DNA from: Paucidesulfovibrio longus DSM 6739
GTDB taxonomy: Bacteria; Desulfobacterota; Desulfovibrionia; Desulfovibrionales; Desulfovibrionaceae
DNA length: 64,000 nt
Reading direction: 5' to 3'
NCBI RefSeq assembly: GCF_000420485.1
Contig: NZ_ATVA01000012.1
Location: 434,001 to 498,000 of the forward strand
Shown: piece after piece, positions 20,814 through 34,608 of the stretch
Numbering within the stretch: position 1 is the stretch's first letter
Layout of the letters: each line of letters starts with the position of its first letter
Notes under the pieces: generated by a model
Told to the model about the DNA's origin: nothing
The model's input: only the letters and a program-made list of their open reading frames with translations
Database searches by the model: none
Program-made: the position numbers and the translations under genes

Positions 20814-21545
20814 CTAGGCCTTGGTCATGCGCTGCACGGGCCGTCCGAGCTTGGCCAGGAACTGCTTCCTGGTCATGGGCTGGCGGACGGGCGAGGCGTC
20901 GCTGTAGGCCGAGAGGGTCTGGTGGTACTTCTCCGGCGGGAAGGCCGCCAGGAAGATCACCCGCACGTCGTCCGGGTCCACGAGCTGCGCGTCGGGGAAG
21001 CGCTTTTGCGCTTCGGCCAGCCGCGCTTCGGCCAGCTTGAGCATCTCGTCGCGCTCGCCGAAGTTCATGGTGCCCGTGGGGCAGCTCTGCACGCAGGCGG
21101 GCAGCCTGCCCATGCGCACGCGGTCGATGCACATGTCGCACTTGTAGACGATCCCGGTTTCCGGATCCTGACGCGGAATGTCGTAGGGACAGGCGTCGCG
21201 GATGTCCTGGAAGACTTCCTTGGCCGTGAGCGGGGTGTAGATGACCGCGCCCGTGGCCTCGTCGTGCAGGATCGCGCCCTCGTTTTCCGTGGCCATCTGG
21301 CAGGGCGGCTGGACGCAGTGGCGGCACTGGTCGGGCAGGAACAGCCACTGGAGCCTGCCGTCGATGATCTGCTCCGAGAAGCGGACCAGCCGGATGGTCT
21401 TGCCCGAGAGGTCTTCGGGGTTCTGGTGGGATCCGCGGTTCACGGTCTGTTCCGCGGGGAGCTTCTTCCATTGCTTGCAGGCGATCTGACAACCCCGACA
21501 GGCGGTGCACTTGGTCAGGTCGACAAAGAAGGTCTTTCCGTCCAT
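20814..21545 (-). CDS. fdhB: Formate dehydrogenase iron-sulfur (beta) subunit, copy 1
   Basis: 243 aa with GGAGGAG before ATG 21545. Four [4Fe-4S] motifs are visible: CTACRGCQIACKQW, CRHCVQPPC, the CPYDIPRQ region and CDMCIDRVRMGRLPACVQSCP. It carries electrons from the catalytic subunit, encoded 10 nt upstream, to periplasmic acceptors such as cytochromes c. It has no signal peptide and is presumably exported with the TAT-tagged alpha subunit. It closely resembles copy 2. Confidence 0.95.
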   Translation of the reverse strand: MDGKTFFVDLTKCTACRGCQIACKQWKKLPAEQTVNRGSHQNPEDLSGKTIRLVRFSEQIIDGRLQWLFLPDQCRHCVQPPCQMATENEGAILHDEATGAVIYTPLTAKEVFQDIRDACPYDIPRQDPETGIVYKCDMCIDRVRMGRLPACVQSCPTGTMNFGERDEMLKLAEARLAEAQKRFPDAQLVDPDDVRVIFLAAFPPEKYHQTLSAYSDASPVRQPMTRKQFLAKLGRPVQRMTKA

Positions 21546-21555
21546 GTCTCCTCCT

Positions 21556-24500
21556 TTACGCCTTGCGGACGTTGACCATGAAGGCCTTGGTTTCGGGGAT
21601 GCCCGTGTTCGGGTCGCCCACGGACGGCGTCAGGATGTTGGCGGAGTCGCCGCCGTCCTTGGGCCAGGTCCAGCCGAAGTGCCAGGGCAGGCCCACCTGG
21701 TGGACCTCCACGCCCTGGATGTCGAAGGGCTTCATGCGCGGAGTGACGATGGCGATGGCCCAGATGGAGCCTCGCAGGCTCTCGACCGTGACCCTTTCGC
21801 CGTTGGCGATGCCCCGCAACTTGGCCAGCTGCGGGCTCATCTCCACGAAGACCTGAGGCTCGGTTTCGATCAGCCAGTCCTGGTTGCGGGTCATGACGCC
21901 GGTCTGCCAATGCTCGGTGACGCGGTAGGTCGTGCCCACGAAGGGATAGCGCGGATCGCACACGGCCTTTTCCTCGTCGGAGAAGCTGATGGCAGTGGGG
22001 TTGTGCAGCTGGTCGGAGAAGGGATGCGACTTCACCGGGCATTCCAGCGGCTCGTAGTATTCGGGGAAGGGACCGTCGGCGCGTCCCGGCCCGAAGATCT
22101 GGCCGTAGCCGTGCTTGCGCATGATGAAGGCGTGCTTGGTGCCGGGAGCCCAGCCGCCGTCGGGCACGTCGCCGACCCACTTCTCGCCGTTCCACTGGAT
22201 GACCGGCTTCTGCGGCGCGTAGGGCTTGCCCTTGAGGTCCACGGAGGCGCGGTTGTAGAGCACGCGGCGGTTCACGGGCCAGCACCAGCTCCAGTTCGGG
22301 AAGAGGCCGATGTTGGCCTGTTCCGGGGTCTGGGACAGGTCGCGGCGCGCGGCCATGTTGCCCTTCTCCGTGTAGGAGTGGCAGTAGAGCCAGTTGCCCG
22401 ACATGGTCGATCCGTCCGCCTGGAGGAAGGCGAAGCTGGGAACCAGCTCGCCCTTCTTGTAGAGCTTGCCCTTGATCTCGGTGTCCTTGGTGAAGTAGCC
22501 GTTGATCAGCTTGGCGGTCTTGTTGGAATCGAAGACGCCCTTTTCAGCGATGGCGTCCCAGGTCAGCCTGGTGATGGGCTCGGGGAACGCGCCGCCCTTC
22601 TTGGCGTACAGCTTGCGGATCTTCTCCATCAGCTCGTACATGATGTCGCCGTCGGGGCGCTGGTCGCCGGGGGCGTCCGGGCCCTTGTAGCGCCACTGCA
22701 TCCAGCGGCCGGAGTTGGTCACGGAGCCTTCCTTCTCCACGGAGACGACGCAGGGCAGGAAGAAGACCTCGGTCTTGATCTGCTTGGGATCCATGCCCGG
22801 TCCTTCCCAGAACCAGCCGGTCTCGTTGGGGAAGATGTTCACGTTCACGAGCCAGTCCAGCTTGGTCAGGGCCTGGCGCGTCTTGTTCGAGTTGGCGCCG
22901 GAGCAGGCGGGGTTCATGCCCCAGGCGAAGAGCCCCTTGAACTGGCCCTCGTCCATCTTGTCGAAGAGGGTCAGCCAGGCGTATTCGCTGGCCTTGCGGT
23001 TATCCAGCTTGGGCAGCCAGCGGTAGGCCTTGGCCGGATCGTCTTCCTGCCACATGGACTTGATCAGGCTGGCCATGTACTTCGGGTAGTTCTGCCACCA
23101 GTTGGCCGATTCGGGATCGTGGGACACCGGGGTGTACTTGGTGTTGTGCACCTCCAGGGTATCCTCGCCCGCCAGCGGGGTTTGCAGGTAGCCGGGCAGG
23201 ATGTGGTAGAGCAGGCAGTGGTCCGTGGAGCCCTGCACGTTGGATTCGCCGCGCAGCGCGTTCACGCCGCCGCCGGCCACGCCGATGTTGCCGAGCAGCA
23301 GCTGGATCATGGCCATGCTGCGGATGTTCTGCACGCCCACGGTGTGCTGGGTCCAGCCCATGGCGTACATGATGGTTCCGGCCTTGTCCCGCTTGCCCGT
23401 GGCCGCGTAGGTTTCGTAGAGCTGGACCAGTTCGGCCTTGCTCATGCCGGAGATGGCCGCGACCTTGTCCAGGCTGTAGCGGGCGTAGTGCTTCTTGAGC
23501 AGCTGGTAGACGCAGTCGGGATCCTTGAGGCTCTCGTCGCGCACGGGCACGCCGTTTTCGTCCATCTGGAAGGCCCAGGTCTTCTTGTCGTAGGACCGGG
23601 TCTTGGGATCGTAGCCGGAGAAGAGGCCGTCGTCGAACTTGAATTCCTTGACCACCTTGAAGGCGGCGTTGGTGTAGTTGACGACGTATTCCTTGAAGAT
23701 CAGGTCGTTGTCGAGAATGTACTTGATCATGCCGCCGAGCACGGCGATGTCCGCGCCGGAGCGGATGCCCGCGTAGATGTCGGCCTTGGCCGAGGTGCGC
23801 GTGAAGCGCGGGTCCACGTGGATCAGGGTCGCGCCCCGTTCCTGCGCCCGCGTCACCCACTTGAAGGAGATGGGATGGTTTTCGGCAGCGTTGCTGCCCA
23901 TGATAAGAATGCAATCACTGTTCTGAAGGTCAGTCCAGTGGTTGGTCATCGCGCCGCGTCCGAACGACTCTGCCAGAGCCGCAACAGTGGCGCTGTGTCA
24001 AATACGTGCCTGGTGCTCTATGTACACCAGGCCGAGGGAACGGAGCATGGTCTGGAAAGCCCAGCACTCCTCGTTGTCCAGGGCGGCGGAGCCGAGCGAC
24101 GCGATGGCGTCGGTGCGGTTGACTTCCTGCCCCTTGGCGTTGTGGGTCTTGAAGCTCGCGTCGCGCGTCTTCTTCACGCGGTCCGCGATCTGGTCCAGAG
24201 CCCACTCCCAGGAAACTTCCTTGAACTTGGTCGCGCCCGGAGCGCGGTAGAGCGGCTTTTCCGGTCGGCGGGGGTTGTCGCCCAGCTGCCAGATGCTCGC
24301 GCCCTTGGCGCAGAGCGCGCCCTCGTTGATGGGATGGTCGGGGTCGCCCTCGATGTTCACGGCCTTCATGGTCTTGAGGGACGTGTTCACGATCAGGCCG
24401 CAACCCACGGCGCAATAACAGCAGATCGTGGTGCTTTGCTTGCTCCACTCGGGGGAAAGCATGGTCGCGCGGTCTACGACCGGGACGGTGTGCCTGCACC

Positions 24501-24573
24501 CGAGGCCCCCGAAGGCCGTGACCGCGGCCGCGGTCGCGGAGAGCTTCAGGAAGTGCCTTCGATTCATGCTCAT
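21556..24573 (-). CDS. fdhA: Formate dehydrogenase catalytic subunit, copy 1, selenocysteine-containing
   Basis: 1005 aa when the in-frame TGA at 24000-23998 is read as Sec192. Start ATG 24573 lies 6-11 nt after GGAGGA. The N-terminus has a twin-arginine signal (NRRHFLKLS). A [4Fe-4S] motif follows (CCYCAVGCG ... ALCAKGASIW), then ARI-Sec-HSATVAALAESFGRG, the usual Mo/W ligand context. The bis-MGD domains run to the end. The frame is the same on both sides of the TGA and both flanks align with copy 2. The codons after TGA are unusual for this genome and can form a bacterial SECIS. The soluble periplasmic FdhAB of Desulfovibrio also has Sec192. It is preceded by the 77-aa ORF. Confidence 0.95.
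23959..24000 (-). promoter_or_regulatory. UGA(Sec) codon and predicted SECIS in fdhA copy 1
   Basis: TGA occupies 24000-23998. Downstream, UGC/GCA pair around a GGCUCUG apical loop, with ACU/AGU forming the lower stem after a small bulge. The loop sits about 21-27 nt from the UGA, close to the E. coli fdhF arrangement (loop GGUCU). The codons ACT GTT GCG GCT CTG GCA differ from the GC-ending synonyms in copy 2, as expected if RNA structure is selected. Confidence 0.8.
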
Positions 24574-24607: not shown

Positions 24608-24841
24608 TCAGCGGCCGCGGGTCTCGCGGCCGAGAGCCACGAGCAGACCATAGCCGGATACGGGCCGGGGGCGTTCCATGCCGCGCGCGAACACGCGCCC
24701 CTCGTCCGAACGCGCTGCCGGGCGGAGGGTCATGTTCGCGGCTGCCCAGGAAACGCCTGTCAGCGAGTGCCCCAGCCCGGCAAAAGGCAGGGGGGTCGCT
24801 TCGGCTCGGACCGCTTTCGCTGGTTTGGGAGATCTACGCAT
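24608..24841 (-). CDS. Small protein (77 aa) preceding fdhA copy 1, unrecognised family
   Basis: ATG 24841 follows AAGGAGAG by about 9 nt; the stop is 34 nt before fdhA. The sequence has PAK (7-9), LPFxGLGH (18-25), AAxMxLR (34-40) and a C-terminal VSGYGLLVALGRETRGR. A paralog of exactly the same length precedes fdhA copy 2 at the same distance. The two align without gaps at about 37/77 identities, and in the last 17 codons seven of eight codon differences are silent. This indicates selection on the protein. There is no TAT motif and no clear membrane helix; it is basic and Arg-rich. It could be an accessory or maturation factor, or a leader peptide. I do not recognise the family. Confidence 0.8.
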   Translation of the reverse strand: MRRSPKPAKAVRAEATPLPFAGLGHSLTGVSWAAANMTLRPAARSDEGRVFARGMERPRPVSGYGLLVALGRETRGR

Positions 24842-24863
24842 CGACAAAATCTCTCCTTGTCTG

Positions 24864-24881
24864 ATTCTCCCTTCGGAGAAT
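24864..24881 (-). promoter_or_regulatory. Leader hairpin before the 77-aa ORF, copy 1
   Basis: A perfect 7-bp stem ATTCTCC / GGAGAAT with a 4-nt loop lies 23 nt upstream of the start codon, next to the ribosome site. An equivalent hairpin lies at the same distance upstream of the copy 2 ORF. Confidence 0.6.
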
Positions 24882-24928
24882 TTCGATGGGAATACAAACA
24901 AGGCGATCATCCGTTGGGTTCTACACTG

Positions 24929-24948
24929 CTATTTTGAGCATAATAAAT
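24929..24948 (-). promoter_or_regulatory. Conserved AT-rich element upstream of fdh operon copy 1
   Basis: Read on the plus strand, CTATTTTGAGCATAATAAAT matches TTATTTGACATAATAAAAGG at copy 2 at nearly the same distance (about 90-107 bp) from the ORF start. On the transcribed strand it contains TATTAT, a possible -10. It may be a promoter core or an operator. Confidence 0.5.
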
Positions 24949-24960
24949 CGGCGCAAACAA

Positions 24961-24986
24961 AAAGGCCCCGGACCGAAGTCCGGGGC
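24961..24986 (-). terminator. Terminator of the fdhAB copy 2 operon
   Basis: A perfect 10-bp stem, GGCCCCGGAC / GTCCGGGGCC, with a 4-nt loop is followed on the minus strand by five T. It separates the two tandem fdh operons, so each has its own promoter. Confidence 0.95.
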
Positions 24987-25043
24987 CGGTTTGTCCGCGC
25001 CGGCATGCCCCTGCCGGGAGTCGGCGCGGTGGAGGCGTCGGGA

Positions 25044-25766
25044 TCAGCTTCGCATGGCCTTGACGGGCCGCGCCATGGTGGCGAGCAGCTCCATGCGGTT
25101 CAGCTTGCGCGGGCCGTTCTCGGCGTAGGCCGTGAGGAACTCGTAGTAATTCGCGGGCGGGAAGGCCGCGAGAAAGACCACTCGCACGTCGTCCTGGTCC
25201 ACGATCTGGGCCTGCGGGAACTTGACCTTGGCCTCGGCCAGGGCTTCCTCGGCCATCTTGAGCATCTCCGCCCGGTCGCCGAAGTGCATGGTGTTCGAGG
25301 GGCAGGTCTTGACGCAGGCCGGCTCCAGGCCGATGCGCACCCGGTCGAGGCACATGTCGCACTTGATGCTGGCCTTGGTCTTCGGATCCTGCCGCGGAAT
25401 GTCGTAGGGGCAGGCGTCGCGGATGTCCTGGAAGTTCTCCTTGGCGGTCAGCTCGGTGTGGATGACGGCGCCGGTTTCCTTGTCCTGGGTGATGGCGTCC
25501 GGGTTCTGGGTGGCCATCTGGCAGGGGGGGATCAGGCAGTGGCGGCACTGATCCGGCATGAACAGCCAGCGCAGCTTGCCGTCGATCATCTTTTCCGAGA
25601 AGCGGATGATCTTCAGGGTGTGGTCGTTCATGTCCATGGGATTCTGGTACGTCCCGTGGTTTTCGGTCTTGCCGGCCGGGAGCTTTTTCCATTGCTTGCA
25701 GGCCACCTGGCAGCCCCGGCAGGCGATGCACTTGGTCAGGTTTACGAAGAAGGACTTGCCTTCCAT
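25044..25766 (-). CDS. fdhB: Formate dehydrogenase iron-sulfur (beta) subunit, copy 2
   Basis: 240 aa with GGAGGATC before ATG 25766. It has the same four [4Fe-4S] motifs as copy 1 (CIACRGCQVACKQW, CRHCLIPPC, CPYDIPRQ, CDMCLDRVRIGLEPACVKTCP). It starts 10 nt after fdhA copy 2 and is the presumed electron outlet of the Cys-type enzyme. The C-terminus ends in RPVKAMRS, versus RPVQRMTKA in copy 1. Confidence 0.95.
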   Translation of the reverse strand: MEGKSFFVNLTKCIACRGCQVACKQWKKLPAGKTENHGTYQNPMDMNDHTLKIIRFSEKMIDGKLRWLFMPDQCRHCLIPPCQMATQNPDAITQDKETGAVIHTELTAKENFQDIRDACPYDIPRQDPKTKASIKCDMCLDRVRIGLEPACVKTCPSNTMHFGDRAEMLKMAEEALAEAKVKFPQAQIVDQDDVRVVFLAAFPPANYYEFLTAYAENGPRKLNRMELLATMARPVKAMRS

Positions 25767-25776
25767 GTGATCCTCC

Positions 25777-28700
25777 TTAGAGCTTGCGGACGTTGGCCAT
25801 GAAGACCTTGGTCTCTGGGATGCCGGTGTTCGCGTCGCCGACGGACGGCGTCAGCAGGTTGGCGGAGTCGCCGCCGCTGCCGTCTTCCGGGAACTGCCAG
25901 CCGAAGCACCAGGGCATGCCGATGGGGTACACGGTCTTGCCCATGACGGTGAGCGGCTGGATTCTCGGCGTGACGATGGCCACTGCCCAGATGCTGCCGC
26001 GCACGCTTTCCACCTGGACCTTCTCGCCGTTGGCGATGCCGAGCTTTTCGGCCAGCTGCGTGCTCATCTCCACGAACATCTGGGGCTGGGCCTCCAGCAG
26101 CCAGGGCACATGGCGCGTCATGCAGCCGGTCTGCCAATGCTCGGTGAGCCGGTAGGTGGTGGCCACGTAGGGGAACTTCGGATCGGCCACGGCCATCTTC
26201 TCCTCCACGAAGCGCAGGGCCGCCGGGTTGGTGACCTGCTTGGAGAAGGGATGCTTGCCGAAGGGGTTCTCCATGGGCTCGTAGTGTTCCGGGAAGGGGC
26301 CGTCGTTGCGGCCGGGGCCGAAGTCGTGGCCGTGGCCGTGGGGCAGCATGATGAACGAGTACTTCTCGCCCGGAGCCCAGCCGCCGTCCGGCACGTCGCC
26401 GTACCACTTCTTGTTGGCCGCGTCCCACTGGATGACGGGCTTCTGCGGGGCGTAGGGCTTGCCTTCCATGGTGCAGCTGGCGCGGTTGTAGAGAATGCGG
26501 CGGTTCACGGGCCAGCACCAGCTCCACTTGGGGAAGAGGCCGATGTTGGCCTGTTCCGGGGTCTGGGTCTTGTCGCGGCGCGCGCCCATGTTGCCGTCCT
26601 CGGTGAAGGAGTTGCAGTAGAGCCAGTTGCCCGAGCTGGTGGAGCCGTCGTCCTGGAGCATGGCGAAGCTCGGGACCAGGGTGCCCTTCTTGTAGGTCTT
26701 GTCCTTGATGGTCACGTCCTTCAGGAAGTAGCCGTTGATGAGCTTGGCCACCTGGGTCGAGCTGTATTCGCCCTTTTCCTTCCAGAGGTCCACGGAGAGG
26801 TTCAGGATGGGTTCGGGCATCGGCCCGCCCTCCTTGGCGTAGAGCTTCTTCACCTCGTCGTAGAGCTTGGTCATGATGTGGCCGTCGGACATGGTCTCGC
26901 CCATGGTCTTCGGCCCCTGGTAGCGCCACTGCATCCAGCGGCCGGAGTTGGTCACGGAGCCTTCCTTCTCGACGGAAACGCAGCAGGGCAGGAAGAAGAC
27001 CTCGGTCTTGACCTTTTTCGGGTCCATGCCCGGCCCGCGCCAGAAGGAGCCGGTCTCGTTGTCGAAGATGTTCACGTTGACCATCCAGTCCAGGTTGGCC
27101 ATGGCCTCGCGGTTCTTGCCCGCGTTGGCTCCGCCGCAGGCCGGGTTCTGGCCCCAGGCGAAAAAGCCCGTGAATTCCTTCTTGTGCATGGAGTTGAAGA
27201 GCTGGAGCCAGGTGTAGGTCTTGTCGTCCTCCACCTTGGGCAGCCAGCCGTAGGACGTGGCCGGGTCCGCGTCCGGATACATGGCCTTGAGGAAGCTGGC
27301 CATGTACTTGGGATAGTTCTGCCACCAGGCCGCGCTCTTGGGATCCTTGGCTCCGGCCAGGTGCGGCGCGGTCACGGTCTTGAGGTAGGCGTCCAGGCTG
27401 TCCCAGGCGGCCTTGGCCGTGGCCAGGTAGCCGGGATAGTTCTGCCAGAGCAGGGCGTGGTCCGTGGAGCCCTGCACGTTGGACTCGCCGCGCAGCGCGT
27501 TCACGCCGCCGCCGGAAACGCCGATGTTGCCGAGCAGGAGCTGCACGATGGACATGGTGCGGATGTACTGCACGCCCACGGTGTGCTGGGTCCAGCCCAT
27601 GGCGTACATGATGGTCCCGGCCTTGTCCGGCTTGCCCGTGGCCGCGAAGAGCTTGTAGAATTCCAGCAGCGCGGCCTTGTCCGCGCCGGAGGTGGCGACC
27701 ACGTTGTCCACGCCGTAGCGCTCGTAGTGCTTCTTCATCAGCTGGTAGACGCAGCGCGGGTGCTTCAGGCTCGGATCCTTCTTGGGCAGCCCTTCGGCGT
27801 CCATCTCGAAGGCCCACTGGGACTTGTCGTAGCGGCCCACGTAGTCCTGCTCGTCCGGGTTCTTGAGGTAGCCGGAGAAGAGGCCGTCCTTGAACCCGTA
27901 CTTCTCGCCCACGATGAAGGTCGCGTTGGTGTGCGCGACCACGTAGTCCTTCTGGATCAGGTCGTTGTCCAGGATGTACTTGATCAGACCGCCGAGCACC
28001 GCGATGTCCGTGCCCGCGCGGATCTGACAGAAGAGGTCCGCCTTGGAGGACGTCCGGGTGAAGCGCGGATCCACGCTGATGAGCTTGGCGCCCTTGCGCA
28101 TGGCCCGCTCGACCCAGGTGAAGGAAATGGGATGGTTCTCGGCCGCGTTGCTGCCCATGATCAGGATGCAGTCGCTGTTGCCGATGTCGCACCAGTGGTT
28201 GGTCATGGCCCCGCGGCCGAAGGACTCGGCCAGGGCCGCCACGGTGGAGCTGTGGCAGATGCGGGCCTGGTGCTCGACCCAGACCATGCCCAGGGCGCGC
28301 TGGATGGCCTGGTAGGTCCAGCATTCCTCGTTGTCGATGGCCGCCGAGCCCACGGACGCGATGCCGTTGGTCCGGTTCACGACCTGTCCCTTGGCGTTCT
28401 TGACCGTGAAGCTCTCGTCGCGGGACTTCTTGACGCGCTTGGCGATTTCGCCCAAGGCCCAGTCCCAGCTCACTTCCTTCCACTTGTCGCTGTGGGGCGC
28501 GCGGTACATGGGCTTGAGCACGCGCTTGCTGCCCTCGGCGAGCTGCCAGATGGACGAGCCTTTGGGGCAGAGGGCGCCCTCGTTCACGGGATGGTCCGGG
28601 TCGCCTTCGATGTTCACGGCGCGCCCGGTCTTGAGGGACGTATTCACGATCAGCCCGCAGCCCACGGCGCAGTAGCAGCATACGCTGGTGGTCTGCTTGC

Positions 28701-28830
28701 TCCACTTGGGAGTGAGCATTGCGGCCCGGTCCTGGGCCAGGGCGACCTGGGCCCGGCCTATCCCTCCGAAGGCGGCCAATACTGCCGCGCCCGCGGAGAG
28801 TTTCATGAAATGTCTTCGATTGATGCGCAT
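25777..28830 (-). CDS. fdhA: Formate dehydrogenase catalytic subunit, copy 2, cysteine-type
   Basis: 1017 aa. GGAGGATC precedes ATG 28830. The TAT signal is NRRHFMKLSAG. The [4Fe-4S] motif is CCYCAVGCGLIVN ... ALCPKGSSIW, and the bis-MGD domains are complete. The Mo/W ligand position is Cys192 (TGC at 28257-28255) in ARICHSSTVAALAESFGRG, exactly where copy 1 has Sec192. It is otherwise highly similar to copy 1. It heads its own operon after the second 77-aa ORF. A Cys enzyme is expected to work without selenium, usually at lower turnover. Confidence 0.96.
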   Translation of the reverse strand: MRINRRHFMKLSAGAAVLAAFGGIGRAQVALAQDRAAMLTPKWSKQTTSVCCYCAVGCGLIVNTSLKTGRAVNIEGDPDHPVNEGALCPKGSSIWQLAEGSKRVLKPMYRAPHSDKWKEVSWDWALGEIAKRVKKSRDESFTVKNAKGQVVNRTNGIASVGSAAIDNEECWTYQAIQRALGMVWVEHQARICHSSTVAALAESFGRGAMTNHWCDIGNSDCILIMGSNAAENHPISFTWVERAMRKGAKLISVDPRFTRTSSKADLFCQIRAGTDIAVLGGLIKYILDNDLIQKDYVVAHTNATFIVGEKYGFKDGLFSGYLKNPDEQDYVGRYDKSQWAFEMDAEGLPKKDPSLKHPRCVYQLMKKHYERYGVDNVVATSGADKAALLEFYKLFAATGKPDKAGTIMYAMGWTQHTVGVQYIRTMSIVQLLLGNIGVSGGGVNALRGESNVQGSTDHALLWQNYPGYLATAKAAWDSLDAYLKTVTAPHLAGAKDPKSAAWWQNYPKYMASFLKAMYPDADPATSYGWLPKVEDDKTYTWLQLFNSMHKKEFTGFFAWGQNPACGGANAGKNREAMANLDWMVNVNIFDNETGSFWRGPGMDPKKVKTEVFFLPCCVSVEKEGSVTNSGRWMQWRYQGPKTMGETMSDGHIMTKLYDEVKKLYAKEGGPMPEPILNLSVDLWKEKGEYSSTQVAKLINGYFLKDVTIKDKTYKKGTLVPSFAMLQDDGSTSSGNWLYCNSFTEDGNMGARRDKTQTPEQANIGLFPKWSWCWPVNRRILYNRASCTMEGKPYAPQKPVIQWDAANKKWYGDVPDGGWAPGEKYSFIMLPHGHGHDFGPGRNDGPFPEHYEPMENPFGKHPFSKQVTNPAALRFVEEKMAVADPKFPYVATTYRLTEHWQTGCMTRHVPWLLEAQPQMFVEMSTQLAEKLGIANGEKVQVESVRGSIWAVAIVTPRIQPLTVMGKTVYPIGMPWCFGWQFPEDGSGGDSANLLTPSVGDANTGIPETKVFMANVRKL

Positions 28831-28864
28831 TCAGATCCTCCTTAGCCTGTGAGTTGTGGAACGT

Positions 28865-29098
28865 TCAGCGGCCACGGATTTCACGGCCGAGGGCCACAAG
28901 CAGCCCATAGCCCGATACGTGTCGTCGCAGCGGCGGGGCGCGATGCCGCACTCCCTTGCCGGGCGGCGTTTCCGTCCGGCGCAGGCGCATCGTCGCGGCG
29001 ACCCGGCGAACGTCCGCCAGCACGTGCCCAAGCCCGAGAAAGGGCAGGGTGCGTTCCGTGTCCGTGTCCGGTTTCGCAGGGTGGAAGGTGTTCTTCAC
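28865..29098 (-). CDS. Small protein (77 aa) preceding fdhA copy 2, unrecognised family
   Basis: A GTG start at 29098 follows AAGGAGACG; the stop is 34 nt before fdhA. It has the same length, position and motifs as the copy 1 ORF: PAK, LPFLGLGH, AATMRLR and VSGYGLLVALGREIRGR. The middle (about residues 41-60) is not conserved and is basic in both. Several codon differences near the end are silent, which supports translation. No homologous family is recognised. A role in FdhA folding, cofactor insertion or regulation is inferred only from position. Confidence 0.78.
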   Translation of the reverse strand: MKNTFHPAKPDTDTERTLPFLGLGHVLADVRRVAATMRLRRTETPPGKGVRHRAPPLRRHVSGYGLLVALGREIRGR

Positions 29099-29291: not shown

Positions 29292-30173
29292 TCAGACCAG
29301 GTCGCAGAGAAAGCCGAGGAGTTGGTCGAAGATGGGCCGGGTGCGGTTGTTGAAGCGGAATTCCAGTTCCTTGAGATAGAGGGCGAAGCGCTGGCAGGAG
29401 ATGCCGCGAAAGCTGCGCAGCCGCTCCTTGGCCATGCACCAGAATTCGTCTTGGCTCGCGTCGATGAAGGGCGGTTCGTCCGAGCGGCGGATGATGCCGT
29501 AGGGCAGGCTCTCGTTGCCGCAGAAGACGAGGGCCGCATAGTCGCGGTAGCGGTCGGTGTAGACGAGGTTGCCCGCCCGCTGAAGCTTGAGGTGGAAGTT
29601 GAGATGGAAGTGGAACACGGTTTCGGCCTGGAATCCGGGCATGAGGTCGATGAAGACCAGGTCGTCCTTCCGCAGCAGCCCGAACACGGGGATGGTGTCC
29701 TGGCGCATCTGCTTGGGACCGCCCGTGAGGCGGTTGCCCTTGAGGTAGGAATCCAGCCCGGTTTCCGGGCCGAGCAGCTGGGCCGCGTCCGCCGAGTGGG
29801 CCAGAATGGCGAAGCGCAGCGCGGTCAGGGCCTTGTAGACGGTATTGTAGGATAGGCCCAGTTCCTCCTTGATCTGGTGCGGGGAAAGCTCCCGCACGAA
29901 GCGCTCCGTAAGCTTGAGCCACTCCGTGCAGGAAAGGGCGCCGTTGTTGATCCAGCGCCCGCTGAAGGGCTGAAAGGTGTATTTGCAGGCCGAGCAGCGC
30001 AGCCTGCCGCCCGAAAGGCTGTAGATGCGCCGCACGCGGCAGCGCGGGCACTCCGGCTCGCCGTCGGGCCAGCAGCGCTTGAGCAGGTGTTCCCTGGCCC
30101 GGTCCTCGTCCTCGACCAGGGCCTCGTAATCCGGAGGCAGGGCCGTGAACGCGGGAAGATCGCAGCGGTTCAT
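29292..30173 (-). CDS. IS1595/ISXO2-like transposase-derived protein, probably domesticated
   Basis: 293 aa. An N-terminal zinc ribbon (Cys42, Cys45, Cys60, Cys63) is followed by an HTH-like region (ELSPHQIKEELGLSYNTVYKAL). The RNase-H-like core has Asp141, Asp207 in VYTDRYRDY, and DEFW (242-245) where active relatives have an E-x-F-W motif, so the third acid is altered or shifted. It begins 23 nt after fdhE on the same strand, and I see no terminal inverted repeats. It may be a co-opted DNA-binding protein in the formate dehydrogenase island. Confidence 0.7.
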   Translation of the reverse strand: MNRCDLPAFTALPPDYEALVEDEDRAREHLLKRCWPDGEPECPRCRVRRIYSLSGGRLRCSACKYTFQPFSGRWINNGALSCTEWLKLTERFVRELSPHQIKEELGLSYNTVYKALTALRFAILAHSADAAQLLGPETGLDSYLKGNRLTGGPKQMRQDTIPVFGLLRKDDLVFIDLMPGFQAETVFHFHLNFHLKLQRAGNLVYTDRYRDYAALVFCGNESLPYGIIRRSDEPPFIDASQDEFWCMAKERLRSFRGISCQRFALYLKELEFRFNNRTRPIFDQLLGFLCDLV

Positions 30174-30196: not shown

Positions 30197-31081
30197 CTAG
30201 AAGCCCCAGGCCGAGAGCGTGGCGCGGGTGTAGCCCTGGTCCAGGGCCACGAAGTCCAGGGCCATGGAATCGAGGTCGTCGAATTCGGGCAGGGGCGCGC
30301 GGTCCAGCTCCCGGAAATCGATGGTCTTGACGTAGTGCTTGCAGGTCTTGCAGACGTCAACGCGGAATCCCGGCTCTTCCTTGACGGTGAAGAAGGTCAG
30401 CTTGGTCTGGTCGTCCTCGTTGCAGACGGGGCAGGCCAGCCGCCGCACGCGGTATTCGTGGCGGCAGAAGGAGCAGGTCACGTGGCGGAAGCCTTCCTTC
30501 TGGCGCAGGGTCGAGATCAGAGGCATTTCGCCGCAGATGGGGCAGGCGGGCTGGTTCCAGGTTCCGGCCTTGGGCAGGTTTTCGGCCAGGGCCTCGGCCG
30601 CGGACCAGATGCCTGGCGCCAGGGCGGAATACGCCAGGAAATACGCCGTGCGCGGCGCTTCGGGCCACTTCTCGGCCCATTGGGCAAAGAAGGCGTCGTC
30701 CGTAAGCACCTTGTCGAAAAGCGTCTGCGCGCTCAATTCGCCGGATTCGAGTTCCGCGCGCAGGGCCTGGGCCGCTTCGGCCAGGGGGCCTTCGGCCTCG
30801 CAGGTCAGCGCGAGCAGTTGGTCGAAGAGTTCGGCAGCCTGCTTTTCGTCCACGGGAAAGCGCTCGCGGCCGAGCAGCGGCTTGCCCTGGAGAACCTCAT
30901 CGGGCGAGGCGAGCTGGTCCGCCGAGGGCAGGACGATGTTCGCCGCTTCACGGGAGGCGAGCTGCAAACGGGTCACGCGCTCCAGGAAATCCACCAGACT
31001 CCCGGGCAGGAGATTCCGGTTGCGGATCAGGGCCAGGGTGGCGTCGAGACGTTTTTCGAATTCGGGTCGGTCGTAGCTCAT
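30197..31081 (-). CDS. fdhE: Formate dehydrogenase accessory protein FdhE
   Basis: 294 aa from ATG 31081. Conserved cysteine pairs of FdhE are present: CPICGEMP, CSFCRHEYRVRRLACPVCNEDD and VCKTCKHYVKTID. These form rubredoxin-like metal sites. FdhE is cytoplasmic and acts on the TAT-exported catalytic subunit before translocation. It lies between moeA and the fdh structural operons. The frame extends upstream to 31396 without a plausible start, so the shorter protein is preferred. Confidence 0.9.
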   Translation of the reverse strand: MSYDRPEFEKRLDATLALIRNRNLLPGSLVDFLERVTRLQLASREAANIVLPSADQLASPDEVLQGKPLLGRERFPVDEKQAAELFDQLLALTCEAEGPLAEAAQALRAELESGELSAQTLFDKVLTDDAFFAQWAEKWPEAPRTAYFLAYSALAPGIWSAAEALAENLPKAGTWNQPACPICGEMPLISTLRQKEGFRHVTCSFCRHEYRVRRLACPVCNEDDQTKLTFFTVKEEPGFRVDVCKTCKHYVKTIDFRELDRAPLPEFDDLDSMALDFVALDQGYTRATLSAWGF

Positions 31082-31272
31082 GTGCGCTCCAGGTTGATGT
31101 GGTGGTGTGAAACTATGAGGAAGAACGACGGCTGCCCATCTTTTTCTACCTACCCACAGTTTGACACTGATCCAATCAAAGTGAAGCAAAAAAAGGATGT
31201 TATTGTGCCATGAAAAACATGATGAAGGGTTTGCGCAAACCAAAACCTGGGGAATCCGGCGGGTTGGGAGTG
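31082..31272 (-). promoter_or_regulatory. AT-rich fdhE upstream region with a 14-bp palindrome
   Basis: No gene lies in this interval. A perfect palindrome GGTTTGCGCAAACC lies at 31228-31241. TTTGA ... TCAAA dyad arms also occur near 31167-31187. These could be regulator sites for fdhE. No reliable -35/-10 can be assigned. Confidence 0.35.
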
Positions 31273-32568
31273 TTATAATCCGATCAGGCCGAGATCGCCG
31301 CAGAGCAGTTCCAGGCATTGGCCGGGGCGGAGTTCGCTGTCCGGCGGCAGCACGGCCACGGCGTGGGCCTCGGCCAGGGCGCGCAGCGAGGGCCACTCGT
31401 CCCCGTGCAGCGGGACCGCGGCGAGCTGCCCGTCAGCGAGGTTCAGGGAGCAGGGCAGCAGCCACTCGCTGCCCCGGCGCGTGCGCAGCCCCGTGCGGAG
31501 CGCGGCGCGCAGTCCCGCGTCCGGAGGCAGGCCGCAGAGTTGCCGGGCCAGGGGCAGTGCCAGGCCGTGCAGGCAGGCGAAGACCGCGGCGGGAGGGCCG
31601 GGCAGGCCCAGCAGCAGCACGTTGGCCTTGCCCGCGTCGCGGCGCAGCGCGGCAAAGGCGTTTTTCCCGGGCCGGACATCCAGACCCGCGAAAAGGGTCT
31701 TGAATCCCGCCTGTTCCGCAGCCTTGCGGGCGTAGTCGCGCTCGCTGCGGCCCGTGCCGCCCGTGGTCACGATCAATGCGGGGCGCGGATTGAACTCGAC
31801 GGTCTCGCGCAGGGCCGCGGTCACGGCGGCGAGGTCGTCGGGCAGCACGCTGCAATGCGCCGCTTCCAGGCCCCAGGAGCGCAGCAGGTTCGCGACCAGG
31901 ACCACGTTGTCCGCGGGAATGCGGTCCGGGTCGCCGTGCGGCGCTGGCGCGGCCAGCTCGCTGCCCAGGCCGAACATGGCGAAGGCCGGGCGCGGGTGCA
32001 CGGGCAGTTCTTCCACGCGGGCGCGCGTGAGCACGGCTCCTGCCTGGGAGGTGATGCGCGTTCCGCTGCGGGCCAGGAGGCTGCCTGCGGGCAGGTCGCC
32101 GCCCTGGGGCAGGATGAAGGCATGCTGTTGCGCCGGTTCGGAAAGAAGAATGGCCTGGTCTTGCGGGCCGGGAGGCTCGGCAAGGTTCTCGAAGGGGATG
32201 ACGGCGTCGGCTCCCGGCGGCAGGGGGGCTCCCGTGAGGATGCGGACGGCCTTGCCCCGCGCCAGGGCTTGCGGCTGGCGGGCGTCCGCGGTCAGGCGTC
32301 CCTGGGTGGCGAGGCGCAGCGGGGTCTCGGCGCTTGCCGCGCCCGTGTCCTCGGCCCGCAGGGCATAGCCGTCCCGCAGGGAAACCGCGCATTCCGGCAC
32401 GCCGATCTCTGCGCGGAGATCCGCCGCAGCGACGCGGCCCACTGCCTGCCAGGGGGGGAGGCGGAGGGGCGCGGGCCGGGGAGCGCTCCGCAGCAGCAGG
32501 GCCACGGCCTGCGCGCGGGTGGGGCGTTCTTTCCGGTCCGGCGTGGTAGATGCGTGCGGCGTATTCAC
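31273..32568 (-). CDS. moeA: Molybdopterin molybdenumtransferase MoeA-like protein
   Basis: 431 aa from a GTG start directly after the fdhD stop (TGAGGTG), suggesting translational coupling. An ATG at 32628 inside fdhD is an alternative start and would give 451 aa. MoeA landmarks are SLRDGYALRAEDT, VRILTGAPLPPGADAVIPFE, a divergent TTGGTG loop and LLLGLPGPPAAVF. It inserts molybdate or tungstate into molybdopterin. The GSG-type loop TTGGTGRSERDY departs from the usual S/TGG.S.GDYD, so it is a divergent MoeA. Its place between fdhD and fdhE suggests it serves these formate dehydrogenases. Confidence 0.85.
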   Translation of the reverse strand: MNTPHASTTPDRKERPTRAQAVALLLRSAPRPAPLRLPPWQAVGRVAAADLRAEIGVPECAVSLRDGYALRAEDTGAASAETPLRLATQGRLTADARQPQALARGKAVRILTGAPLPPGADAVIPFENLAEPPGPQDQAILLSEPAQQHAFILPQGGDLPAGSLLARSGTRITSQAGAVLTRARVEELPVHPRPAFAMFGLGSELAAPAPHGDPDRIPADNVVLVANLLRSWGLEAAHCSVLPDDLAAVTAALRETVEFNPRPALIVTTGGTGRSERDYARKAAEQAGFKTLFAGLDVRPGKNAFAALRRDAGKANVLLLGLPGPPAAVFACLHGLALPLARQLCGLPPDAGLRAALRTGLRTRRGSEWLLPCSLNLADGQLAAVPLHGDEWPSLRALAEAHAVAVLPPDSELRPGQCLELLCGDLGLIGL

Positions 32569-32569
32569 C

Positions 32570-33352
32570 TCAGGACTGTAGGACGCGGCCCTTGTCGTTG
32601 TAAACCCAGAAGCGTCCTCCCCGGACATTGCCCACCAGGGTGATTCCGGTCTGGCGGGCCAGCTTCACCGTGAAGCTGGTGGCCACGGCGGTGGAGACCA
32701 GCACCGGGATGCCGATGCGGACCACCTTGAGCAGGATTTCCGAGGCCACGCGGCCCGTGGTCACGATCATCTTGTCGTCCACGGAAATGTTGTTCAGGAA
32801 GCATTCGCCGCAGATCATGTCGATGGCGTTGTGCCTGCCGATGTCTTCCCGGAAGAGGAGCATCTCGTCCGGGGTGCAGAGCGAGGAGTTGTGGCAGCCG
32901 CGCGTGCGCCCGTAGAGGGCCGAGCGGTTGTGCAGCTCCTCCGCGAGGGCGAGGATCTGTTCGGGCCGCACGCGCACGTCGCCGTTCAGCCGCCGTTTGG
33001 AAATGGTCTGCACGTTGCGCCCGAAGTTGGTGCCCTTGCCGCATCCCGAAGTGATGGACCGCTCCATGAGCCTGTCCTTCCAGGGATCGTGGCAGGTTTC
33101 CACGTCGGCCAGGATGCGTCCGTCCTCCTCGCGCACGTGCAGGTCGGTGATCTGCTCCGGGCTGGAAAGGAAGGCGTCGGACTTGAGAAAGCCCACGGCC
33201 AGGTATTCGGGCTGCTTGCCCGTGCAGAGCAGCGTGACCACCTCGCGTCCGTTGAGCCGGATGGTCAGGGGGATTTCCCGGATGGATTCCACGGGGGCCT
33301 TTGCAAAGCCGCCTCCGGAATACTCCATGACCTCATAGCGCTCTGAATCCAT
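32570..33352 (-). CDS. fdhD: Formate dehydrogenase sulfurtransferase FdhD
   Basis: 260 aa, ATG 33352 after AGGAGAG. FdhD signatures are PLTIRLNGREVVTLLCTG, the Cys104 region TSGCGKGT (where most family members have a CxxC), FREDIGRHNAIDMICGE and ASFTVK-type C-terminal residues (ATSFTVKLARQTGITLVG). FdhD passes sulfur to the Mo/W-bisPGD cofactor of formate dehydrogenase. Here one of the two usual active-site cysteines appears replaced (GCGKG). It is the first gene of the fdhD-moeA unit. Confidence 0.93.
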   Translation of the reverse strand: MDSERYEVMEYSGGGFAKAPVESIREIPLTIRLNGREVVTLLCTGKQPEYLAVGFLKSDAFLSSPEQITDLHVREEDGRILADVETCHDPWKDRLMERSITSGCGKGTNFGRNVQTISKRRLNGDVRVRPEQILALAEELHNRSALYGRTRGCHNSSLCTPDEMLLFREDIGRHNAIDMICGECFLNNISVDDKMIVTTGRVASEILLKVVRIGIPVLVSTAVATSFTVKLARQTGITLVGNVRGGRFWVYNDKGRVLQS

Positions 33353-33478
33353 GCGTCTCTCCTGCTTTCCGCGCTCCCGATGGATAGTCGGTTCATTTTC
33401 ATATATAGCTGGCCGACGCGAAGAGTTGCAACGTAAAATCATATCCCAGCGGTTTTGCACCGCTCGCGGGGGAGGAGC

Positions 33479-33988
33479 ATGGGGCCGAAGATCGTCTGCA
33501 TCGTGGGCAAGAAGAAATCCGGAAAGACCACTTTTCTCGAAGCGCTGGTCCCGGCGCTCAAGGAGTTGGGCCTGCGGGTGGGCACGGTCAAGCACGACGC
33601 CCATTCCTTCGACATGGACCATGAGGGCAAGGATTCCTGGCGCCATCGCCGGGCCGGGGCGGACAGCGTGGCCGTTTCCTCGCCGACGCAGCTGGCCCTG
33701 ATCAAGAGCGTGGACCGGGAGCTGGGCCTGCCCGAGCTGGCCCTGGAATTCTTCGCGGATCGGCAGGTCGTCCTGGCCGAGGGCTATTTCCGCTCGGACA
33801 TGCCCAAGGTGGAGGTGCATCGCTCCGAAGCCCACGCCGAACCGCTCTGCAACGCGGAAAACGCGGCGGAGAAGAAGCTCCTGGCCCTTGTTTCGGACAC
33901 GAAGCAGGATCTCGGCGTGCCGTTTTTCGGCCTGGACCAGGCCCGCGAGGTGGCCCGGCTCATCGCGGACCGGCTGCTCGGAATCTGA
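33479..33988 (+). CDS. mobB: Molybdopterin-guanine dinucleotide biosynthesis adaptor MobB
   Basis: 169 aa with GGAGGAG before ATG. The Walker A loop GKKKSGKTTF near the N-terminus and 'LRVGTVKHDAHSFDMDHEGKDSWRHRRAGADSVAVSS' are diagnostic of MobB. It is a GTP-binding partner of MobA in making the bis-MGD cofactor of FdhA. It is divergent from fdhD and convergent with mobA (5-nt gap). Confidence 0.93.
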   Translation: MGPKIVCIVGKKKSGKTTFLEALVPALKELGLRVGTVKHDAHSFDMDHEGKDSWRHRRAGADSVAVSSPTQLALIKSVDRELGLPELALEFFADRQVVLAEGYFRSDMPKVEVHRSEAHAEPLCNAENAAEKKLLALVSDTKQDLGVPFFGLDQAREVARLIADRLLGI

Positions 33989-33993
33989 GCAGG

Positions 33994-34608
33994 CTAGAGT
34001 CCGCGTTCCCTGGCCAGGGCCTCGGCGCGCGCCAGTTCCTGCGGGGTGTTCAGGTTTCGGAAGGAGAGCAGGTCCGGGTCGTGGGGCCGCAGGAGCGATA
34101 CCGGCACCTCCCGCACGCGCACCTCGGAAAAGAAGCGGATGATCTTGAAGTCGCCCCGGTCCAGCTGGGCCTTGATGTGGGGCAGGCAGCGGCGCGAGTA
34201 GACCGCGCAGAGCGGCTCCCGGTAGCCGTCCTCCTTGAGGGGGGCGAGCACGTCCAGTTCGGGCCGGAATTCCTCCAGCAGGGCGCGCACCAGCCCCGGC
34301 TGGAGAAAGGGCACGTCGCAGGCGGCGAAAAAGGCGTGCTGGGCGCGCACGGCGCTCAGTCCGGCGTGGATGCCCGTGAGCGAGCTGCGCGCGTCCACAA
34401 GGTCCAGGGCCACGGGCAGGCCGTATTCCGCATAGGGTTCGGCCTCGCGCGCGGCAATGACGATTTCCTCGAAGATGTCCCCGTAGACCCGGAGCAGGCG
34501 GTCCAGGATCCTCCTGCCGCCCACCTCCACGAACGCCTTGCGCACGTTGCCCATGCGCGTTCCCAATCCTCCGGCGAGGATCACTCCGGCCACGTCGTTT
34601 CGCTTCAT
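33994..34608 (-). CDS. mobA: Molybdenum cofactor guanylyltransferase MobA
   Basis: 204 aa. The nucleotidyltransferase signature is VILAGGLGTRMGNVRKAFVEVGGR. The region SLTGIHAGLSAV and the metal-binding FFAACDVPFLQP are MobA landmarks. It attaches GMP to molybdopterin, giving the MGD used by both formate dehydrogenases here. It converges on mobB with almost no spacer. Confidence 0.93.
   Translation of the reverse strand: MKRNDVAGVILAGGLGTRMGNVRKAFVEVGGRRILDRLLRVYGDIFEEIVIAAREAEPYAEYGLPVALDLVDARSSLTGIHAGLSAVRAQHAFFAACDVPFLQPGLVRALLEEFRPELDVLAPLKEDGYREPLCAVYSRRCLPHIKAQLDRGDFKIIRFFSEVRVREVPVSLLRPHDPDLLSFRNLNTPQELARAEALARERGL

Follow-up and report, generated by a model that had tools for sequence, protein, structure and literature searches.

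The nearest described counterpart of a small open reading frame (ORF) beside formate dehydrogenase (FDH) genes is TIGR02811 ("formate dehydrogenase region TAT target"), a family of unknown function with a short conserved C-terminal block and an N-terminal twin-arginine translocation (Tat) signal. Two further kinds of known system bear on such an ORF: the chaperones that read the Tat signals of molybdoenzymes (NarJ/TorD/DmsD, NapD, FdhE, FdhD) and the monitoring or arrest peptides (SecM, MifM, VemP, ApdA/ApdP, CutF). Here we describe two ORFs, each upstream of an fdhA gene, in a 64,000-nucleotide (nt) stretch of Paucidesulfovibrio longus DSM 6739 (contig NZ_ATVA01000012.1, positions 434,001 to 498,000; hereafter the window, with positions counted from its first letter). 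The two ORFs are members of a real family of proteins in Desulfovibrionia. Of its two conserved blocks the first resembles, with clear statistical support, the end of the FdhA Tat signal, although the twin arginines and the hydrophobic core are missing.

Position beside fdh genes, here in 106 of 106 cases, is what this family has in common with TIGR02811; unlike the latter it has no Tat signal, and the C-terminal motifs of the two differ. The initial annotation of the ORFs had held that they are not the known small Tat protein of other fdh loci, and none of 120 sampled genomes scored above the TIGR02811 cut-off. Sub-threshold matches occurred in 65 of the 120, with frames of at least 127 amino acids (aa) among those listed, and TIGR02811 was rejected as a diverged relative. 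With the FdhA Tat signal the small protein shares the pattern F-x-G-L-G-x-x-L-x-x-V-x-x-x-A, but it lacks the RR motif and the hydrophobic core and is a separate protein with a C-terminal block of its own. It would act in the same step as the signal-reading chaperones, the reading of a molybdoenzyme Tat signal, yet with a family length of about 60-85 aa and no conserved cysteines (91-sequence alignment, below) it resembles the ligand and not the reader; Pfam searches (E ≤ 1) with the two window proteins and 21 members returned no chaperone domain of the NarJ/TorD helical or FdhE/FdhD types. Monitoring and arrest peptides, as portrayed in PMC7897499 and PMC9973294, likewise join a small ORF upstream of a presumed target, a possible sensor part and a conserved C-terminus. 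In contrast to them, the small family shows by inspection no Sec or Tat signal and no membrane segment, has no RAPP or proline-rich end, and no hairpin hiding the Shine-Dalgarno motif was detected.

The small genes and their linkage to fdhA

Both ORFs were present at the positions first given, each with 77 codons and a stop, and are to be read on the minus strand (24841-24608 and 29098-28865), the plus-strand translation there being something else. The distance of 34 nt from the end of each to its fdhA start (24573 and 28830) was confirmed, while the ungapped identity of the pair came to 36/77 in place of the roughly 37/77 reported. Their last 17 codons encode 16 identical residues, and seven of the eight codons that differ are silent, as had been noted; no twin-arginine signal is visible by eye in either protein. 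The likeness of the pair is beyond chance, small protein 1 retrieving small gene 2 from the whole genome at E 4.4e-11. The Shine-Dalgarno-like AAGGAG precedes both genes, of which small gene 1 starts with ATG at 24841 (an alternative in-frame ATG at 24910 would give 100 aa) and small gene 2 with GTG at 29098.

To collect homologs, a single-sequence search of 59 relatives was followed by a search with a 21-row profile against 348 genomes of the class, here termed Desulfovibrionia because the named genera that carry the small gene (Pseudodesulfovibrio, Humidesulfovibrio) belong there. Matches at E ≤ 0.01 were found in 157 of the 348 genomes, which sets a ceiling on how many carry the small gene, since in at least six of them (G007, G044, G126, G138, G183, G328; G and L numbers are our handles for genomes and loci) the listed matches all lay at fdhA starts. 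Full-length matches numbered 107 rows, one of which was FdhA itself (L015), leaving 106 (104 distinct sequences) that are the best-scoring matches and no random draw. In all 106 an fdhA gene lies directly downstream (98 assigned by a first sequence pattern, the other eight, with CxFC in FdhA, by inspection), so that homologs upstream of other fdhA genes do exist within Desulfovibrionia; the gap, measured in 98, is 20-42 nt in 92 and 73-74 nt in six.

In a scan of named genomes (best 80 of 193 fdhA loci, the DNA upstream being shorter than 700 nt in eight of the 80), the small gene was seen within 700 nt upstream in 12 loci and was not seen in the other 68, whose titles mostly name other groups of Desulfobacterota or Nitrospirota. 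Eight of the 12 positive titles name Pseudodesulfovibrio, Halodesulfovibrio, Humidesulfovibrio, Solidesulfovibrio or unnamed Desulfovibrionales; three more are wide titles (L084, L090, L092), and the last, L086, is a metagenome bin titled Desulfobacterium sp. A small gene preceding fdhA occurs in many sulfate-reducing bacteria.

Among the 123 close FdhA matches listed (E 7e-119 or better) in 120 complete genomes of the class, the small gene accompanied 76 and proved absent on testing from 29 (counting the weak match L252, E 6.5e-5, as a cytochrome-like frame), while 18 were left without a call. Two of these 18 (G038, G043) carry the small gene by single-sequence search, and a third, G273, has a copy immediately upstream of fdhA that is broken by a single TAG within the match (G273:C2:263041-263169), from which we conclude that the gene can decay or be lost. 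The small gene was found in none of the 15 readable loci of a distant FdhA type with the motif CPFC[SA]V (L261-L278, three unreadable). A ModE-like reading frame, named by eye, lies upstream in several of those loci, and a distant FdhE form in the same genomes suggests two cognate FdhA/FdhE sets. Four further loci (L222, L227, L239, L255) have diverged small proteins upstream of fdhA that end in NRETRGS, NREIRGS or NRETGGS; these loci come from a sister family of the order.

Two stretches of the protein are conserved, block 1 (LPFxGLGx(D)L..V...A) and block 2 (GYxLLVxLGREIRGR-stop). The linker between them is hypervariable in sequence but hardly varies in length, PF lying 55-64 residues from the C-terminus (mean 58.8, standard deviation 2.1, n = 104 at 40 bits or more, diverged lower-scoring members not counted). 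In an alignment of 91 sequences below 85% similarity, no variation is seen at the F and both G of PFxGLG or at the G of GY; near-invariant are the P (90/91), the L of GLG (90/91), the E of GRE (90/91), the R before it (88/91) and the last-but-one G (88/91). Of the 104 sequences 81 end in RGR and 12 in LGS, and the stop codons are TGA (62), TAA (34) and TAG (8). By inspection, neither the 91-sequence alignment nor that of 21 members has a conserved twin-arginine RR-x-F or hydrophobic core before block 1. AlphaFold (13 sequences) predicted two helices only, at residues 28-35 and 63-74, with a predicted local distance difference test score (pLDDT) of 63.8 and a predicted template modelling score (pTM) of 0.22.

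Selection acts on the protein, as had been proposed from the silent changes. The ratio of nonsynonymous to synonymous differences (pN/pS), pooled over 125 pairs that share sequences and are not independent, is 0.39 in block 1, 0.73 in the linker and 0.17 in block 2. An in-frame start codon with a Shine-Dalgarno motif precedes block 1 in 73 of 104 genes as against 9 of 104 in a shifted frame, a control often ended early by stops, which favours this outcome. No Pfam family (E ≤ 1) matched the two window proteins or the 21 members, and no NCBIfam model matched the window proteins, with three unrelated chance-level matches only among the 21, none of them to TIGR02811. Rfam has no family in the window and the folding of the small gene-fdhA junctions is ordinary; we therefore rejected an RNA element, the silent changes and pN/pS favouring a protein. 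The family is a genuine, conserved, protein-coding small protein tied to fdhA, and small protein and FdhA probably share one mRNA.

Likeness of block 1 to the FdhA Tat signal

Block 1 (LPFxGLGFDLxxVxxxA), as first noticed by eye, resembles the end of the FdhA Tat signal, LAFGGLGFDLKPVKARA, whose pattern is AFGGLGFDLxPVxAxA. Comparison of two hidden Markov models (HMMs), one from the 91 small proteins and one from 67 FdhA N-termini, gave a probability of 95.9 and P 5.8e-9 over 36 columns; when the column order of block 1 was shuffled, 0 of 2000 shuffles matched the true score, whose best placement is exactly LAFGGLGFDLKPVKARA.

The same likeness emerged from searches with the small-protein profile. 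A blind search, with a profile built from small proteins only, against a sample of 395 genomes across the phylum found matches at E ≤ 1e-3 in 11 genomes, seven within the class and four outside; three of the four outside fall on the FdhA Tat signal (G418, G479, G651) and the fourth (G682) on an unrelated frame. Within the class, 11 genomes hand-chosen for weak or ambiguous results gave 12 matches at E ≤ 0.01, of which nine were FdhA starts, one a true small gene (G321), one the broken copy of G273 and one an unrelated frame (G323). The fdhA start in G321 (G321:C108:23100) lies at the usual distance after its small gene. Median profile scores were 18.6 bits for close FdhA signals (195 rows, redundant), 6.5 for the distant FdhA type (13) and 0.0 for other Tat-like starts (15 rows, mostly without a genuine Tat signal, with an FdhA scoring highest). 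By the HMM comparison, the shuffle test and the two profile searches, block 1 resembles the FdhA signal specifically and not Tat signals generally; the set of other Tat-like starts is small. The motif is present also in FdhA of loci without the small gene, and for that reason it probably came first in FdhA.

Proposed role and competing explanations

The initial annotation had offered a dedicated FdhA chaperone, maturation factor or regulatory peptide; the choice among these is still inference, and the pointer to mechanism that it missed is the likeness of block 1 to the FdhA signal. A look-alike of part of that signal, without export features, suggests a role in controlling FdhA maturation. 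Our preferred reading, held tentatively and at somewhat under even chances, is that the small protein is a cytoplasmic decoy or placeholder for the reader of the FdhA signal, with FdhE as first candidate. The small protein would stay in the cytoplasm, and its block 1 would fill the site on an FDH-specific maturation factor that otherwise holds the FdhA signal; this factor would most likely be FdhE, and less so FdhD or another. Block 2, with its low-confidence predicted C-terminal helix, might give a second contact at a distance set by the linker. A reader kept loaded or tuned in this way would let FdhA pass to the Tat translocase only once its cofactors are in.

A factor that reads the FdhA motif presumably exists in these cells. 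How an FDH Tat signal is read before export is treated as open in a review, where FdhE is the suspected reader for the Escherichia coli enzyme and likely binds the FdnG signal, with direct proof lacking (PMC10609526). In our sample of 120 genomes, probed with the window's own FdhE, the close FdhE form was present in all 57 small-positive genomes (56 plus G321); it is this co-occurrence, together with the suspected role of FdhE, that leads us to propose a decoy on that reader. PF04216 (FdhE_N) had been tried as the probe and replaced, as it matched 0 of the 120 genomes although it matches E. coli. TorD-type proteins (PF02613), found in 53 of the 120, were rejected as partner, being absent from small-positive genomes such as G001, G004 and G030.

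Several observations weigh against a decoy. In 21 sampled genomes close FdhE is present but an intact small gene is not, so that FdhE has no need of the small gene. With the small-protein profile, scores above background are reached by the distant FdhA type as well, and the motif is therefore not entirely private to FdhA linked to a small gene. In the window itself both FdhA signals deviate (GLGCRHT, GIGRAQV) from the consensus, whereas the small proteins paired with them retain GLGHxL. Small proteins do match the FdhA of their own operon better than shuffled partners (5.52 versus 5.23 of 11 columns, reached by 0 of 2000 shuffles, n = 103), but the difference is slight, and relatedness confounds it. 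A likeness of block 2 to FdhA, seen by eye and in the HMM alignment of L015 (GYGLLV versus GCGLIV, VGCGLIVHT), was dropped for lack of significance, as 508 and 1484 of 2000 shuffles reached it. The AlphaFold model, finally, is weak.

The main alternative, though unlikely, is that the small ORF acts in cis as a nascent-chain monitor in the manner of SecM, MifM or CutF, block 1 being a sensor caught outside the ribosome by an FDH maturation factor while block 2 delays or arrests the ribosome at the stop codon, thereby setting translation of fdhA 20-40 nt downstream. The ribosome tunnel holds 30-40 residues, and PF, at 55-64 residues from the C-terminus, would stand just outside it. An upstream small ORF with a variable linker and its last 16 residues strongly conserved up to the stop codon would also fit, and CutF is a precedent in the operon of a cofactor enzyme (PMC9973294). 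Against a monitor, no RNA structure hiding the fdhA Shine-Dalgarno motif was seen (mean junction fold z -0.09 in the first 60 of 104 loci; motif half paired, n = 57), no Sec or Tat signal or hydrophobic segment is visible, the chain ends mostly in RGR and not in a RAPP-type sequence, and the stop codons vary. About as unlikely would be its SecM-like version for cofactor maturation, in which an FDH chaperone reads the look-alike nascent chain and links free chaperone, that is maturation capacity, to fdhA translation; if true, it would be a SecM-like device serving cofactor maturation instead of the Sec translocase.

Doubtful to a similar degree is an escort, in which the small protein would bind apo-FdhA (or FdhAB) where the FdhA signal folds back, close the N-terminus until cofactor insertion and then leave. 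The order small gene-fdhA in 106 of 106 matches and the constrained length between the blocks, which suits a bipartite ligand, would agree with this, but the folding back of the signal onto the enzyme is an assumption, and close FdhA proteins manage without the small gene in the 29 tested negatives.

The neighbouring gene at 29292-30173, of the IS1595/ISXO2 transposase type, gives rise to a fourth explanation. Relatives of this gene formed 82 matches in 76 of the 120 genomes, nearly one per genome, at E ≤ 1.1e-47 (our own cut-off, excluding about eight weaker matches at E 1e-39 to 1e-27); for 69 of the 82, fdhE is no more than 2.5 kb away or an fdhA follows within 1.1 kb downstream. These genomes also contain IS1595 relatives that are clearly mobile; they have only about 220-240 codons and 25-30% identity, and several genomes carry them in multiple copies. 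Of the catalytic residues, which we take to be D, N and E, the N and the following E are kept in 6 of 6 mobile copies versus 0 of 34 fdh-linked rows, which represent 28 loci, six of these entered twice (fdh-linked loci include the window gene, L285-L293, L296-L298 and L315-L326). The two D are retained in 21 and 28 of the 34, in an alignment that is gappy around the first D, and the four zinc-ribbon cysteines in all 34. A scan for inverted repeats around the window copy found two pairs, neither bracketing the gene. By these comparisons the fdh-linked gene is probably a domesticated transposase; its product is perhaps DNA-binding and possibly a regulator of fdh.

That the small protein is a partner or effector of this transposase-like protein, in an fdh-specific regulatory pair, seems to us very unlikely. 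The small gene was indeed found only where the transposase-like protein exists, in 57 of 76 sampled genomes with it versus 0 of 44 without (Fisher P 2e-17 over all 120 genomes and 3e-4 over the 78 with close FdhE, computed with 56 positives, before G321, and too small because the genomes are related). In a set of 14 loci, mostly selected for a nearby fdhE, the transposase-like gene also precedes the small gene in 12 and stands beside fdhE elsewhere in the other two (G001, G296). However, it precedes fdhA without a small gene as well (G026, G042, G321:C77, G324, G326, G328), and a regulatory pair would leave the likeness of block 1 to the FdhA signal unexplained. Most improbable is that the small gene is a mere leader ORF, or a decayed tandem duplicate of the start of fdhA, retained for translation coupling only: partial duplication would yield both the block 1 likeness and the adjacency, and the broken copy of G273 shows the gene to be losable, but both blocks are under purifying selection, strongest at the C-terminus where no FdhA likeness is demonstrable, the spacing is fixed, and fdhA has a separate Shine-Dalgarno motif in 57 of 60 loci.

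As an fdhA-linked protein with a look-alike motif, the small protein would be a natural bait and competitor for the reader of the FdhA signal, and its gene is deletable with FDH activity as readout. Desulfovibrio FDHs are studied as CO2-reduction catalysts, so that a gene for maturation or dosage, overlooked in front of fdhA, would matter for enzyme production. Judged by title or start of abstract, no open-licence paper in PubMed Central was found to describe the small family or the transposase-derived fdh gene. In D. vulgaris, DVU0586 precedes fdhA (DVU0587) by locus number and, in PMC3431258, is named as showing raised mRNA unmatched by protein in biofilms; it is at most a candidate member of the small family. 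DVU2483 is given as a cytochrome c in PMC10920352 and PMC3114432.

FDH genes of the window

The window holds tandem copies of fdhAB, one of the selenocysteine type (in-frame TGA) and one of the cysteine type, with a small gene before each (Table 1), and the small gene is accordingly not restricted to selenocysteine-type fdhA.

Table 1. Positions of the small genes, their conserved blocks and neighbouring features in the window
Feature	Position	Strand	Remark
small gene 1	24608..24841	-	77 aa, ATG, upstream of selenocysteine-type fdhA1; homologs found
small protein 1 block 1 PFAGLGHSLTGVSWAA	24740..24787	-	residues 19-34, FdhA-signal-like motif
small protein 1 block 2 VSGYGLLVALGRETRGR	24611..24661	-	residues 61-77
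small gene 2	28865..29098	-	77 aa, GTG, upstream of cysteine-type fdhA2
small protein 2 block 1 PFLGLGHVLADVRRVA	28997..29044	-	residues 19-34
small protein 2 block 2 VSGYGLLVALGREIRGR	28868..28918	-	
fdhA1	21556..24573	-	Tat signal at start, in-frame TGA (selenocysteine)
fdhB1	20814..21545	-	4Fe-4S subunit
fdhA2	25777..28830	-	1017 aa, Cys replaces Sec (selenocysteine), no in-frame TGA
fdhB2	25044..25766	-	4Fe-4S subunit
terminator-like stem-loop	24964..24987	-	between fdhB2 and small gene 1
IS1595/ISXO2-type transposase-like gene	29292..30173	-	usual fdhE or fdhA neighbour in class; catalytic residues not conserved
fdhE	30197..31105	-	frame as given to Pfam, true start maybe slightly inside; candidate FdhA-signal reader
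fdhD	32570..33346	-	FdhD/NarQ family

Molybdopterin and Fe4S4 domains were found in FdhA2, with TAT_signal just below the cut-off. Of eight terminator-like sites found (4.3 expected), the stem-loop that separates fdhB2 from small gene 1 is the one with the most G-C in its stem; as it divides the two genes, small gene 1, fdhA1 and fdhB1 may form their own transcription unit, and each small gene may head its own small gene-fdhA-fdhB unit. An FDH maturation cluster at 30197-34608 comprises fdhE, moeA, fdhD and mobB, plus a mobA-like frame recognised by eye.

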